From NCBI RefSeq assembly GCF_011761985.1, contig NZ_JAASQT010000006.1:62001-126000 (forward strand): a DNA stretch of 64,000 nucleotides. Reading direction: 5' to 3'. The DNA comes from Brevundimonas terrae (lineage in GTDB: Bacteria > Pseudomonadota > Alphaproteobacteria > Caulobacterales > Caulobacteraceae). The position numbers were made by a program, and so were the translations under genes. Shown here piece after piece: positions 28,647-57,885 of the stretch. Each line of letters starts with the position of its first letter. Position 1 is the first letter of the stretch. The notes beneath the pieces are model-generated. The model was not told where the DNA came from. It did no database searches and worked only from the letters and a program-made list of their open reading frames with translations.

Positions 28647-30035
28647 ATGACTGCATCCGCCGACCGATACGTTTCGACCCGCGGCCACGCCGCCGATGAA
28701 AACTTCGCCGACGCCCTGCTGCGCGGCATTGCCCCCGATGGTGGCCTCTACATGCCCGCCGCATGGGCCACCATGCCCGCGGACATTACCCAAAAAGGCC
28801 GCACCTATGCCGAGATCGGCCGCGATGTCCTGACACCCTATATCGGCAGCGCCCTGCCTGCCGGTGCCGTGGAACGCGCCCTGAAACGTCTGGTTGAGGG
28901 TTTTGACCATCCGCTGGTGACACCTCTGGTTGAGCTGGAAGCGGGCCTGTTTGTGCTGGAGCTTTTCCGTGGCCCGACGGCTGCGTTCAAAGACCTTGCC
29001 ATGCAATTGGTCGCCGCCTTGTCCGACGAGGCACTGGCCGCATCGGGCGAAACCCTGACCCTGCTGACCGCCACCAGCGGCGATACAGGTGCCGCTGCCG
29101 TGCGTGCCTTTGCCGGTGCCAAGCGGATCAAGCTGATCGTGCTGCACCCGCTGGACCGCGTCTCGCCGATCCAGCGCAAACAGATGACCACGGTTCAGGC
29201 CGATAATGTGCTGAACCTTGCTGTGCGCGGTGATTTCGATGACTGCCAGCGTCTGGTGAAGATGCTGTTGGGCGATGAATCCTTGCGCGAAAAAGGCCGC
29301 CTGTCCTCGGTCAACTCGATCAACTGGGGCCGTCTGGCGGGCCAGATTCCCTATTATGTTTCGGCCACGGCCCAACTGGGTCAGGCCGCGCATTTTGTAG
29401 TGCCGACCGGAAACTTCGGTGATGCCTTTGCCGGTATTGCCGCCAAGAAGATGGGCCTGCCGGTTGCCGGTATGACCGCCGCCGTCAACCAGAACGATGC
29501 CCTCGCCCGCGCCATCAATGAAGGCGTCTATGACCGCCGCACCGCCATCGAGAGCGCCAGCGTCTCTATGGATGTTCAGGCCCCGTCGAACTTCGAGCGT
29601 CTGGTGTTCGAGGCCTCGGGTCGTGATGCCGACCTGACCCGCCAACTGTTCGAGGACTTTGCCAAGAATGGCACGGTCACCCTGCCCGACAGCCTTTTGG
29701 CTTCGCTGCGCAAGGAAACCTCGGCGGTGTCGGTGGACGAAGCCACCACCGCCGAAGAAATCCGCCACGCCTATAAGGCCTGGGGTCGTATCGTGTGCCC
29801 GCACACCGCCGTCGCCCTTCATGCCGCGCGCAAGATGGACCGCAACGGCGCACCAGTCGTGGCCCTGTCCACGGCCCACCCGTCCAAGTTCGGCGGTTAT
29901 GTCGAAAGCGTTCTGGGCGTTGCGCCCGAACCCGCGCCCGTGATTGCCGCTCTCGGTGATCAGCCCGAGCGGCTCACTGTGGTCGAGAACGACTATGCCT
30001 CGCTGCTGGAAACCGTCAGCGGTTTCAGCGCCTGA
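28647..30035 (+). CDS. thrC: threonine synthase
   Basis: PLP enzyme that converts O-phosphohomoserine to threonine. The start YVSTRGHAADENFADALLRG is typical of the long proteobacterial form (462 aa). The PLP lysine lies in AAFKDLAMQL (Lys 115), and TATSGDTGAAAVRAFAG supplies the phosphate-binding loop. It converges on thrB across a terminator, so thrC is transcribed separately from the hom-thrB unit. Confidence 0.96.
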   Translation: MTASADRYVSTRGHAADENFADALLRGIAPDGGLYMPAAWATMPADITQKGRTYAEIGRDVLTPYIGSALPAGAVERALKRLVEGFDHPLVTPLVELEAGLFVLELFRGPTAAFKDLAMQLVAALSDEALAASGETLTLLTATSGDTGAAAVRAFAGAKRIKLIVLHPLDRVSPIQRKQMTTVQADNVLNLAVRGDFDDCQRLVKMLLGDESLREKGRLSSVNSINWGRLAGQIPYYVSATAQLGQAAHFVVPTGNFGDAFAGIAAKKMGLPVAGMTAAVNQNDALARAINEGVYDRRTAIESASVSMDVQAPSNFERLVFEASGRDADLTRQLFEDFAKNGTVTLPDSLLASLRKETSAVSVDEATTAEEIRHAYKAWGRIVCPHTAVALHAARKMDRNGAPVVALSTAHPSKFGGYVESVLGVAPEPAPVIAALGDQPERLTVVENDYASLLETVSGFSA

Positions 30036-33238: not shown

Positions 33239-33354
33239 CACTCATCAAGACCAGCCGAGGGATTAGGCCCTTTGACGCTGGGGCAACCATCGGGTTCCTC
33301 CCGAAACGGTGCCAACTCCTGCGGGGTTCCGAAAGGGACCGCGAGAGATGGGTG
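33239..33354 (+). ncRNA. SAM-I (S-box) riboswitch upstream of metX
   Basis: The 8-bp P1 is CACTCATC at 33239-33246 with GATGGGTG at 33347-33354. Consensus blocks follow in order: ATCAAGA, GAGGGA, GGCCC, TGACG, GGGGCAACC, then GGTGCCAACTCCTGC, and a P4 hairpin with a GAAA loop. This matches the S-box SAM aptamer closely. SAM binding should shut off metX-metB. A TTGACC at 33205-33210 is a possible -35 element. Confidence 0.93.
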
Positions 33355-33424: not shown

Positions 33425-33440
33425 TTGTGTGACGAGACCC

Positions 33441-39582: not shown

Positions 39583-41605
<2,023 letters not shown>

Positions 41606-41657
41606 AGACCTTGGTCTTGGGATGGGCCGCGCCCTTTGTCAACCGATGGTTGCCTGA

Positions 41658-50212: not shown

Positions 50213-50767
50213 TCAGCCTTTGTGCTTGATCGCAAAATCGTGGAACGCCTTCAGATAATCGCCGAGGAATTTGGCGGTATCCGCATTGGCAATGGCCCCA
50301 TCCTCGCCAATGAGGTCCGGCTTGAACTGCAGATAGACTTCTGTCTGGTTCATCTGGATCACATTCAGAAAGCCCAGCACAGGACGCAGCGCCGCCTGCG
50401 CCACCGCCGTACCGATAGCTCCCGGCGAGGTGCCGATGACCGCCACCGGCTTGCCCGCGAAACTGTTGGTGCCCCACGGACGGCTGGCCCAGTCGAGGGC
50501 ATTTTTCAGACCGCCGGGGATGGAGCGGTTATATTCCGGCGTCACGATCAAAATGGCATCTGCCGCTTCAATCGCGGTCTTCAGGGCACGTCCCTCGGCC
50601 GGATAGTCCGCATCATAGTCATAGGAATAGAGCGGCAGATTACCGATCGCGATCTCGCTGAAACTCACCCCCTCGGGGGCAAGCTTTTCCAGCGCACCGG
50701 CCAGTTTACGGTTGATGGACGCCTTGGCGAGGCTGCCGATAATAATACCGACCTTGATCGCAGTCAT
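50213..50767 (-). CDS. NADPH-dependent FMN reductase
   Basis: Flavodoxin-like reductase of 184 aa in the ChrR/AzoB group. The FMN-binding start is VGIIIGSLAKASINRKLA, and the central TPEYNRSIPGGLKNALDWASRP is the family signature. These enzymes reduce flavins, quinones, azo dyes or chromate. The natural substrate here is unknown. Confidence 0.88.
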   Translation of the reverse strand: MTAIKVGIIIGSLAKASINRKLAGALEKLAPEGVSFSEIAIGNLPLYSYDYDADYPAEGRALKTAIEAADAILIVTPEYNRSIPGGLKNALDWASRPWGTNSFAGKPVAVIGTSPGAIGTAVAQAALRPVLGFLNVIQMNQTEVYLQFKPDLIGEDGAIANADTAKFLGDYLKAFHDFAIKHKG

Positions 50768-54014: not shown

Positions 54015-54248
54015 GGCCACCCTCGCTTGAATGACGGCCACAGCATCGCAATGAATGCGATCTGCCCTGCCCTTGCCCAATCCGCTTAACGAACAGCCTG
54101 TTGGGTCGTTCCCGCACAGTCCTATGCAGAACGGCGCGTGTAAACCGCCTGCGTAAAGCGCTGATCGCCCGCTGCACGCTCGGGGGAACCGCCAGCCTGT
54201 TCCATGCCTTTGAACAGCATACCTGTCGTCGTCCCCCAAGGAGCCGTT

Positions 54249-54659
54249 ATGAAAATCCGTGACCTTATGAGCCGTGATATCCATGTCGCCCGCCCCGAAG
54301 ACAGCCTTCAGCATGTGGCTCGCCGTATGGCCGATGGTGATTTCGGCTTCATGCCTGTGGTGGAGGGCGAACGCCTGATCGGCACCGTTACCGACCGCGA
54401 TATCGCCGTGCGGGCCGTCGCCACGGGGGCCGGACCCGAACAGGCGGTATCGGAATTCCTGTCGCGCGATGCCATTACGGTTCTGGATACGGACGAGCTG
54501 AAAATCGCGCTGGACCTGATGAGCCGTGCGCGTATCCGCCGCCTGCCTGTCATAGACAAAAATGCGCGACTGGTCGGCGTCGTGTCGCTTGGCGACCTGT
54601 CCGTAAAGGTTAAGGAACGCTATGCCGGAGAGGCTCTGGAAAGCATATCCCAGCCATAA
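54249..54659 (+). CDS. tandem CBS-domain protein
   Basis: Cytoplasmic protein of 136 aa made of two CBS domains: MKIRDLMSRDIHVARPEDSL through GTVTDRDIAVRAV, and FLSRDAITVLDTDELK through GVVSLGDLSVK. Such stand-alone pairs bind adenine nucleotides and regulate partners. AAGGAG precedes the ATG. It is divergent from the Kef-type antiporter. The partner is unknown. Confidence 0.9.
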   Translation: MKIRDLMSRDIHVARPEDSLQHVARRMADGDFGFMPVVEGERLIGTVTDRDIAVRAVATGAGPEQAVSEFLSRDAITVLDTDELKIALDLMSRARIRRLPVIDKNARLVGVVSLGDLSVKVKERYAGEALESISQP

Positions 54660-54689
54660 ACCACTGAATCACGACGTTATTCATAGCCA

Positions 54690-54772
54690 ACCCCGTTCAG
54701 GCTCGGTAACCATCTCTCCCAAGAGGTCGATAACCGCTATCGGCTAAGGTTACCGACCTGAAGGTACGGGGT
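54690..54772 (+). ncRNA. candidate structured leader with a three-way junction
   Basis: A long closing stem is formed by CCCCGT (54691-54696) with ACGGGG (54766-54771), TCAGG (54697-54701) with CCTGA (54757-54761), and CGGTAACC (54704-54711) with GGTTACCG (54748-54755). Inside are two hairpins: CTCT/AGAG with loop CCCA (54714-54725) and CGATA/TATCG with loop ACCGC (54728-54742). The 3' strand of the closing stem includes most of GGGGTAGG, the Shine-Dalgarno of the next gene. No known riboswitch consensus is recognised. Confidence 0.6.
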
Positions 54773-54779
54773 AGGCTTG

Positions 54780-55379
54780 ATGGCACGCGCACAATTCCAA
54801 AAAGGTCAGAAGGTCTGGGTCGAGAGCGTCGGCCTGTGGGCCGAAATCGAGCGGGTCATCCCTGTCTGGGCCAAAGGCTTTGAAGAGCCTGTGCGTGTCA
54901 CCTACGAACTGGGTCTGGGGCGCGAATTCCAGAACCACGAACTGCAATCGCCCGAAAGCGAGGCGCTGAGCAGCAATCTGGGCACTTGGCGCGTCTTGCG
55001 CGCGCGCAACAAGTGGCAGGACCAGAATGACTGCGCCCACCACCCCTTCCCCGGCAGCTATCCGGTCGTCGTCACCGACGATGCCGACTGGGGCGGCTGG
55101 CGCGTGCCGGGTGCCGAATATGACCGTCTGCCCGAGAAAATCGAGCAACAGGCCCGCATCATTGCCTGTGCGCCGCAAATGCTCAACCTCCTCAACCAAC
55201 TGGTCGAGAGCGTGGACGAGGCCCCTGACGATGCGCCGCCCGAGACGCGCCGTCTGGCCGATGCCGCCAAGTCCGTCCTGCGCCGTATCCAGACCCAGCC
55301 CCTGCCGCCACGCAAAACGGCCCCCGCCGGAAAACCGGAAGCAACCCCCATCGCCAATAGCGACGAGACGCTCGCCTAA
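54780..55379 (+). CDS. protein of unknown function (199 aa) with structured leader
   Basis: Cytoplasmic, unrecognised protein. The N-terminal half is rich in aromatic residues and beta-prone (QKVWVESVGLWAEIERVIPVWAKGF, GTWRVLRARNKW, DWGGWRVPGAEYD). The first stretch could be a small SH3/KOW-like barrel. The second half is helical (QQARIIACAPQMLNLLNQLVESV) and ends in a Pro/Lys-rich tail. GGGGTAGG lies just before the ATG and is covered by the leader structure. A kinase gene follows 94 bp downstream. Confidence 0.7.
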   Translation: MARAQFQKGQKVWVESVGLWAEIERVIPVWAKGFEEPVRVTYELGLGREFQNHELQSPESEALSSNLGTWRVLRARNKWQDQNDCAHHPFPGSYPVVVTDDADWGGWRVPGAEYDRLPEKIEQQARIIACAPQMLNLLNQLVESVDEAPDDAPPETRRLADAAKSVLRRIQTQPLPPRKTAPAGKPEATPIANSDETLA

Positions 55380-55473: not shown

Positions 55474-57885
55474 GTGCGGGGAATAGAGCGCCGCAGCGAT
55501 GGACGGGGAAGACGAACCACAGACCATCCGGGTCTATGGGGTCGTCCCTATGAACGCGCCCTGTTTCTGGCGGCTCTGCTGATCCTGTCCATGGCCCTGT
55601 TGCTGGTCGCAAGGGACCAGTCCCGGCCGGAACGCGAACTGGATGTTCTCAACCACGATACGCTGGTTCTGGATGCCAGACTTTATGCCCAGAGCACCGC
55701 ACAGCAACTGACCGGTCTGGACCGGTTGCTGGATCAGGCACAAACCCAACTGACCCAGACACCCCTCCAGCCTCTGCAAGCGCTGGAAACGGCTGTCGCC
55801 AGTCTACCGGACAGCGGAATCCTTTTGTCTACAGCACAGGGCACGCCACTGGTGGCCGTGGGACAAAAGCCTGCCCAGAGCTATAATAATGCCCAAGGGG
55901 CCACCCTTACCGACGGATATTTGAACCTTGGCCGTACCCTTGCCAATGGCCAGCGCCTGAATGCCGGTATCAAGGCACACGGCATCGCGCCTACAGGTCA
56001 GGATGTCCGTCTGGAGCTGAGGCCCGTCGCGCAACTGCCACCCGAACTGTTCAGCAGCCCGACGGGGGTGGTACTGCCCGACCCGCAAGGCAAGGATCGC
56101 GTGAATACCGCAGTCAGGATCGGAGACAGCGGGCTGGCCGTGGTGGCCGACCGCCCTGCCCGATCCTTGCTCGACCGCTGGCGCGATGATGCCAGCCTGC
56201 TGGTGATCCCCTTGGCGCTCGGCGTGGCCCTGTTGTTGTTTCTGGCCCTGCAAACCTTCCGGCAGGATCGGACGTCGCGCCAGTGGGCCGATACCGAGCG
56301 CCGCTTCCGCATTGCCGTCGAGGCGGCCCAGTGCGGGGTGTGGGACTGGGATATTGAAAAGGGCCAGTTGCAATTATCGGACTATATGGCCGCGCTGCTG
56401 GACCTGCCCGCCGGAACCAGCCTGACGACCGATGCACTGGTCCAGCGTATCCACCCGCGTTTTCGCGACAGCTTTGCCTCGGCTCTTGGGCAGGCCCGCG
56501 AGAGCGGCCATTTCGATCTGGCCTTCCCCGTCACCCTGAACGACGGCAGCCTGCGCTGGATCGATGCGCGCGGGCGCTCGCGCGGACAACGGGCGGGTAG
56601 GCCGCACCGCCAGATTATGGGTATCGCGCTGGATATCACCGAGGCGCGCCGCGCCAAGGCCCGCGCCAAGGCCGCCGAGGAGCGGCTGGTGGATGGCATC
56701 CAGAGCGTCTCGGATGCCTTTGTCCTGTTCGACCGTCAGGGTCATCTGGTCATGTGGAACCAGGCGTTTCAGGATGCCTTCGATTTTCCGGCGGACGCCC
56801 TTTATCGCGGGGCACTCAAAAACGATCTGAACCGTATCGCCGCGCAGGCCATCCGTACCGAGAACCGCCCCGAGCCGCGCCGTGCAGGGGTCCGTGAAGT
56901 CGCCCTGAAGGACGGGCGGTGGCTACAGATGACCGAACGCTATACCGGCGATGGCGGTACCGTAGTGATCGCCGCCGATGTGACCCTGATCCGCCAGCAG
57001 GAACATGACCGCCGTCGCGCCGCCGAAGAACTGCAACGTACGGTCACCGAACTGCGCGCCAGCCGTTCGCGCCTGTCCACACTGGCCACCGAATACGAAG
57101 CGGCCATGACCCGCGCCGAGGCCGCCAGCCAGTCCAAGTCAGAGTTTCTGGCCAATATGAGCCATGAACTGCGTACACCGCTTAACGCCATTAACGGGTT
57201 TTCCGAAATCATGGCGGGCGAGATGTTCGGCCCGCTGGGGGATCGTCGCTACAAGGGCTATGCGCTCGACATCCATAATTCGGGCAAGCACCTGCTCAGC
57301 CTGATCAACGACATTCTCGACATGGCCAAGATCGAGGCGGGCAAGCATAACCTGCATTACGAGCGTACCGATCTGGCGGCACTGGGGCGCGAGGTGGTGC
57401 GTCTGATGCGCGGGCGGGCCGAAGAGGCGGGACTGGCACTGGCGCTGGATTCAACCGGCATGCTCGAAGCCGAGGTCGATTTGCGCGGCATGAAACAGGT
57501 GTTCCTGAACCTTGTTTCCAACGCCATCAAATTCACTCCGCGCGCAGGGCGTGTGATGCTGATGCTGACGCCACTGATCGAGCGTCCGGGCTATATTCGG
57601 GTGGCCATCAAGGATACCGGCATCGGCATTGCCGCCGACGATATCAAACGGCTGGCCCAGCCCTTTGTGCAGGTCGAGAACCAGCACGCCAAGACCACGC
57701 AGGGCACCGGTCTGGGGCTGGCCCTGACCAAGTCCCTCATCGAGATGCACGGGGCCAGCATGGTGATCGAAAGCGAGCCGAGCATAGGCACGACAGTCTG
57801 GTTCGACCTGCCGGTCAGGGCCAATACGGGGCCGGACACCCTGCCGGATCCGCATGCAGACGATGCGATGGTATCCGCCGCCTAG
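55474..57885 (+). CDS. PleC-like sensor histidine kinase
   Basis: Membrane sensor kinase of 803 aa starting at GTG with GGGAG upstream. A first membrane helix lies near residues 28-46, a periplasmic region to about 235, then a second helix ([21 protein letters not shown]). Two PAS-like domains follow ([19 protein letters not shown] and [22 protein letters not shown]). The HisKA core is [19 protein letters not shown], with the phosphorylated His about residue 564, and ends in a typical ATPase domain (N-box near 683). The [15 protein letters not shown] segment is like PleC/DivJ-type cell-cycle kinases. Identity as PleC itself is not proven. Confidence 0.85.

Follow-up and report, generated by a model that had tools for sequence, protein, structure and literature searches.

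A promoter-like block inside a ribosome-binding-site-masking fold upstream of a 199-aa protein gene in Brevundimonas, and its possible role in insulation from read-through RNA

Related systems and the locus of the 199-aa gene

Read-through RNA that enters the IS10 transposase gene folds over the ribosome binding site (RBS), whereas the element's own RNA does not. In the phage T4 gene I-TevI, RNA from the early and middle promoters hides the RBS, and the late RNA, which begins further downstream, cannot form the fold, according to the part of PMC2988022 that deals with this gene. Similar arrangements with a promoter inside a hairpin are reported there for I-TevII, I-TevIII, segB and Aeh1 mobE (PMC2988022).

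The locus described here lies in the window, the whole stretch of 64,000 nucleotides that was analysed, and precedes a gene for a 199-aa protein. As in I-TevI as portrayed in that account, the RBS would be hidden in RNA from an upstream promoter and free in the gene's own RNA, which is a prediction here and was shown for I-TevI. It is also like IS10, as that system is generally pictured, in that read-through RNA would mask the RBS and the gene's own RNA would not. Unlike the T4 cases, this is a chromosomal gene of free-living bacteria, with no phage genes seen around the locus, and the Brevundimonas mask, for which there is prediction only, varies by lineage and goes with the orientation of the neighbouring gene. 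Unlike IS10, the locus is no mobile element; it is single copy, and its gene order, with a co-directional CBS-domain gene no more than 200 nt upstream, is common to 73 loci out of 100 distinct ones, a set that includes 9 from outside the genus. We propose that the insulation logic could be the same as that of the T4 promoter-inside-hairpin control.

The features of the locus are listed in Table 1. The open reading frame of the CBS gene was listed from 54204, and the in-frame ATG at 54249 is preceded by AAGGAG. The 199-aa protein was found in 125 of 131 Brevundimonas genomes. It had been called uncharacterised in the preliminary description, and this stands: no family in Pfam, NCBIfam or PADLOC matched it, and a PDB sequence search (best E-values 0.086 and 0.1) led to no assignment. 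The fold model of the protein (54780-55376; mean pLDDT 76), which has strands N-terminally and helices C-terminally, gave only fold matches with E-values of 0.05 or worse and again no assignment; a short stretch of the model weakly matches a Lon specificity factor (5ycq, E = 0.1). The downstream PAS kinase resembles cell-cycle kinases of the DivJ/PdhS type, with scores far below their cut-offs.

Table 1. Features of the locus, in window coordinates.
Feature	Position	Strand	Basis or remark
Upstream co-directional gene, two CBS domains	54249..54659	+	proposed source of read-through RNA; Pfam CBS, E = 1e-25
Outer closing stem, 5' arm (masks Shine-Dalgarno)	54685..54701	+	fold for 54690-54701; 54685-54688 by eye
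Inner closing stem, 5' arm, includes first promoter half-site	54703..54711	+	fold and motif
Triple half-site GTAACC, CCAAGA, ATAACC; probable activator site	54706..54735	+	score 16.1 vs shuffled maximum of 5.5
Internal hairpin 1 (4 bp)	54714..54725	+	fold
Internal hairpin 2 (7 bp, one G-U)	54726..54744	+	fold
Predicted -10 hexamer TAAGGT	54745..54750	+	xAxxxT 9 or 10 nt past the motif in 89/91 loci
Inner closing stem, 3' arm	54748..54761	+	fold
Predicted transcription start, uncertain by a few nt	54757	+	inferred: 7th base past the hexamer
Outer closing stem, 3' arm	54766..54777	+	fold for 54766-54772; 54774-54777 by eye
Shine-Dalgarno GGGGTAGG	54768..54775	+	sequence
199-aa gene of unknown function, stop codon included	54780..55379	+	open reading frame
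PAS sensor histidine kinase, downstream	55474..57885	+	open reading frame and profile matches

The three-way junction and its distribution

Folds were computed at 37°C. Positions 54690-54772 have a minimum-energy fold of -42.5 kcal/mol (z = -5.86), and none of 200 dinucleotide shuffles was as stable. In this fold, 54690-54701 and 54703-54711 pair with 54766-54772 and 54748-54761 to give a closing stem of 21 pairs with one 1-nt bulge and one 4-nt bulge. The interrupted closing stem and two hairpins of the preliminary description are thus present, although its term "perfect" was slightly generous to hairpin 2, and its claim that the 3' strand of the closing stem holds most of the Shine-Dalgarno sequence agrees with the pairing in the fold. 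Four extra pairs beyond these coordinates, seen by eye (54685-54688 with 54774-54777), take the rest of the Shine-Dalgarno sequence into the closing stem. When the plus strand was scanned in 1598 segments of 83 nt, four had z < -5, one of them overlapping the element; of the other three, two (35681 and 601) resemble intrinsic terminators, each having a U-rich tail, and that at 30001 is a long hairpin. The element is single copy in the genome (the second match is 21 nt, E = 0.26), and a mobile repeat was rejected on this ground.

No Rfam family matched 54690-54772 at the gathering score or the element at E-values up to 5, and nothing was found on the element in the loci of two relatives. A riboswitch or other known RNA class was therefore rejected, in keeping with the earlier statement that no known riboswitch class could be recognised. 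A covariance model of the window structure was searched against 91 sources, a set assembled before 29 further loci were added. This leader was matched only in the window and in the relative G140, where the match is weak (28.2 bits, E = 0.0024); three marginal matches lay elsewhere, one on the opposite strand of the window (E = 0.017) and one each in L119 (E = 0.23) and L141 (E = 0.41), both outside the leader. The covariance search suggested beforehand thus recovered G140 and no other leader among the 91 sources.

In G140, 17 of 18 homologous closing-stem pairs are retained despite 8 substitutions, a count that rests on a manual alignment somewhat favourable to the structure and omits window pairs with no clear G140 counterpart; MAFFT alignments of the two sequences drift at the 3' end. 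Three pairs are changed on both sides; when the 8 changes were placed at random, about 0.1% of trials preserved the pairing this well. B. pishanensis, about as closely related to the window as G140 is, has no closing stem and is unmasked (z = -0.53 by the measure described below); by protein identity the window, G140 and B. pishanensis are about equally distant from one another (80, 77 and 81%). Absence of the paired blocks from homologous genes had been named as a refutation of the structure, and the outcome is mixed: most homologues do lack them, but G140 keeps them through compensatory changes.

A structured core conserved across homologous leaders was not found, the 91 sources giving the window and G140 only, and a single consensus structure for the diminuta-like group of 13 was weak, with register shifts. 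In diminuta-like leaders such as L050, L005 and L007 a different segment does the masking: the Shine-Dalgarno sequence and the start codon are paired with the bases that run from the -10-like CATGCT as far as the predicted start. As judged from these comparisons, the three-way junction does not represent a conserved class of RNA, and the earlier suggestion of one was not borne out, given the two-species range of the covariance model and the lack of a closing stem in B. pishanensis.

A regulated leader (riboswitch, thermometer or protein-binding RNA), in which the transcript would begin ahead of the structure and some signal would release the RBS, appears improbable. It would account for the layout of the fold and for strong leader folds elsewhere in the genus, 30 of 100 leaders lying below z = -2 vs 1 of 100 in a coding control. 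The absence of an Rfam match and of a conserved aptamer-like core speaks against it, as does a -10-like hexamer inside the structure, and it offers no reason for a dependence on the upstream gene.

A promoter-like block inside the fold

A block of 30 bp upstream of the 199-aa gene recurs across the genus. It reads TTAACC-N7-CAAACC-N5-TTAACC, where the third position of either outer half-site is A or C, and lies 67-76 nt before the ATG in 82 training loci, all of which scored above the 99th percentile of shuffled regions when scored with their own matrix. The three window-clade loci, L148, L152, L010, L058, L028 and L030 were left out of the training. Held-out scores above 5.5, the maximum of 1820 shuffled regions, were obtained for the window (16.1), G140 (11.0), B. 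pishanensis (12.2), L030 (30.4) and L010 (8.7); L058 (4.2), L028 (1.9) and the two Caulobacter loci fell short of it. In these two (L148 and L152, Caulobacter sp.), where the matrix finds no 30-bp motif, a leader hairpin lies over a CAGG shortly before the ATG.

A hexamer of the form xAxxxT, whose two fixed bases are the best-kept ones of -10 elements, follows the motif after 9 or 10 nt in 89 of 91 loci. The block scored above 5.5 in 23 of 26 loci without an upstream CBS gene and in 90 of 92 with one (median 30.5 vs 30.9). The block persists where a different, divergent gene lies upstream, and so belongs to the 199-aa gene. The conserved feature is the promoter inside the fold, as predicted from motif and hexamer, and not the structure.

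The half-sites lie 11 bp apart, as in the CtrA-activated Caulobacter promoters treated in the relevant parts of PMC4287350 and PMC11264516. The Brevundimonas middle half-site would begin at about -38, and the full motif of Caulobacter ctrA P2 begins at -39 in the section on that promoter (PMC4287350). Unlike the CtrA promoters presented in those parts, the Brevundimonas block has TTMACC and CAAACC in place of TTAA-N7-TTAA, and a third half-site stands 13 bp further upstream. When TTAA-N7-TTAA was tested over the -35 region, spacing and position fitted a CtrA promoter and the sequence deviated. Any regulator named for the triple half-site, CtrA included, is a guess.

With a start predicted near 54757, the gene's own mRNA would have no 5' arm, and the fold could therefore form only in RNA from further upstream, that is, in read-through from the CBS gene. 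The predicted own leader is 16-29 nt long (median 19) in 89 loci and is less folded than shuffles (mean z +1.14, 0/89 below -2).

These observations suggest the following course of events. The gene's own promoter (54706-54750, start at about 54757) would sit within the inverted repeat. RNA entering from the CBS gene would carry both arms, fold and bury the Shine-Dalgarno sequence, and should give little of the 199-aa protein; transcripts of the own promoter would begin past the 5' arms, could not fold in this manner and would be translatable. Output of the 199-aa protein would then track its own regulated promoter regardless of CBS-gene activity. The start site, the read-through, the translation block in cells and the regulator are what we infer. 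We regard such a read-through insulator as the best explanation of the fold and its inner promoter, and as a fairly probable one.

Masking and the orientation of the upstream gene

Masking was scored as the predicted energy cost of opening the start site, taken as -13 to +3, for three RNAs: the read-through RNA, the own-promoter RNA and one with shuffled upstream sequence. Nine loci outside the genus (L037-L045) and two Caulobacter loci (L148, L152) were left out beforehand, and the rows for L121 (short) and L137 (partial) had been dropped at an earlier stage. In the first set, the 72 loci with a CBS gene upstream had opening energies of 14.7 kcal/mol in read-through RNA, 10.6 with shuffled upstream sequence and 5.9 in own RNA, and 29 of the 72 were masked at p < 0.05. 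The corresponding energies for the 17 loci without CBS were 9.5, 9.9 and 5.1 kcal/mol, with 1/17 at p < 0.05. The masking z, the predicted occlusion of the RBS in RNA starting upstream, was 2.98 for the window and 3.97 for G140. RBS masking as proposed earlier is thus predicted, but for read-through RNA only; the gene's own mRNA should not form the mask.

A second set was fetched after the idea had formed, and comprised 69 loci less 39 duplicates and L231, whose start was misassigned. Its 20 loci with CBS had a mean z of 1.24 (4/20 at p < 0.05), and its 9 loci without CBS a mean of -0.17 (0/9; MWU p = 0.004 between the two). In the combined sets, z exceeded 2 in 31 of 92 CBS loci vs 1 of 26 without CBS (MWU p = 3.6e-6), and exceeded 1 in 53/92 vs 1/26. 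The contrast held under PGLS (p = 2e-5 with lambda fitted at 0.09; p = 0.008 with lambda set to 0.99) and persisted when the diminuta-like and window clades were removed (74 vs 26 loci, p = 2e-5). Neighbour state changed an inferred 11 times on the tree, and in 11 of 12 comparisons a clade lacking CBS was less masked than its closest relatives with CBS (p = 5e-4); these comparisons are partly non-independent, as several share relatives. An earlier swap test on 91 loci (p = 7e-6), which carried no phylogenetic correction, is superseded by these results.

Of 27 loci that lack CBS, all but L134, where the case is unclear, have a divergent upstream gene; 23 of the 26 were assigned by homology and 3 by open reading frame. 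L210, which retains only a 22-codon CBS match, is unmasked (z = -1.08). L010 has a divergent neighbour and yet is masked (z = 3.79). In six loci with no intact CBS gene (L018, L119, L122, L130, L143, L210), a small minus-strand open reading frame starting MTTALT[K/R]KALLSLLAASAVAIATPTLAQ has the 199-aa gene on one side and, on the other, a divergent aldehyde-dehydrogenase-like gene, so named from its sequence. These data suggest that masking goes with a co-directional upstream gene, as a tendency and not a rule. Since it tracks the neighbour, it is unlike what is expected of a ligand riboswitch or thermometer. The fold, the promoter-like block, the less-folded own transcript and the link between masking and neighbour are computed results.

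As a control, the CBS gene's own start was mildly masked (mean z 0.85, median 0.29, 20/92 above 2, p = 0.005). With the motif-to-start sequence alone as the upstream part, the comparison gave 1.09 vs -0.19 (MWU p = 5e-5), a contrast that weakened under phylogenetic correction (p = 0.014). The three window-clade loci showed no masking in this form (z = -0.84, -0.23 and -1.06), since the arm that masks in these loci is 5' of the motif. Tandem genes of the window were unmasked, both far-spaced (-0.15, 1/20 above 2) and close-spaced (-0.38, 0/12). Divergent genes gave +0.36 when far-spaced (3/18 above 2, one of the three being the 199-aa gene itself, misclassed through a CBS gene that the gene caller had missed) and +0.41 when close-spaced (0/4). 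The one far-spaced tandem gene above 2 was 50215-50767 on the minus strand (3.33), whose leader fold is weakly unusual (z = -1.99). A SAM riboswitch at 33239-33354 (+) and a TPP riboswitch at 41493-41611 (-) reach the Rfam gathering score, and masking above 2 is also seen for the gene that follows the SAM riboswitch, called at 33440.

These controls bear on the simpler reading that the promoter alone is functional and that the fold is a by-product of the TAACC half-site repeats, an inverted GGTTACC over the -10 and a C-rich stretch facing the G-rich Shine-Dalgarno sequence. What is conserved is indeed the promoter, and the specific structure is confined to two species; moreover, 22 of 92 CBS loci have z < 0, among them B. 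pishanensis as one of the two nearest relatives of the window, and the control start of the CBS gene is mildly masked too. We nevertheless consider this reading rather unlikely, as it is opposed by the compensatory changes in G140 and by masking that exceeds that of same-composition shuffles and depends on neighbour orientation in two sets.

A 3'-end structure of the CBS message, either terminator or stabiliser, that overlaps the start of the next gene by chance would explain the dependence on the CBS gene as well. Such a structure is very improbable here: no terminator-like site (a GC-rich stem followed by a T run) was found within 54150-54900, only 6 of 92 CBS loci contain a run rich in T (6 of 8) between -60 and +40, and the effect shows in the measure of start-site occlusion.

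On the read-through insulator, the three-way junction of the window would be one lineage's version of insulation from neighbour RNA. We judge it an evenly balanced question whether a chromosomal insulator has re-evolved repeatedly in Brevundimonas, such that under a co-directional neighbour selection tends to build an RBS mask from the DNA just upstream of the gene's own start, with sequences that differ by lineage, and the mask disappears once that neighbour is gone or divergent. The case also cautions that leader folds, however strong, need not be riboswitches when they overlap a promoter. For bacterial chromosomes the question is seldom raised of how a separately timed gene stays silent inside the transcript of its neighbour. 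If the proposal is true, the point at which an RNA starts would decide whether the 199-aa protein is made, and the rule of a mask only with a co-directional neighbour would offer a route to genome searches for further insulators.
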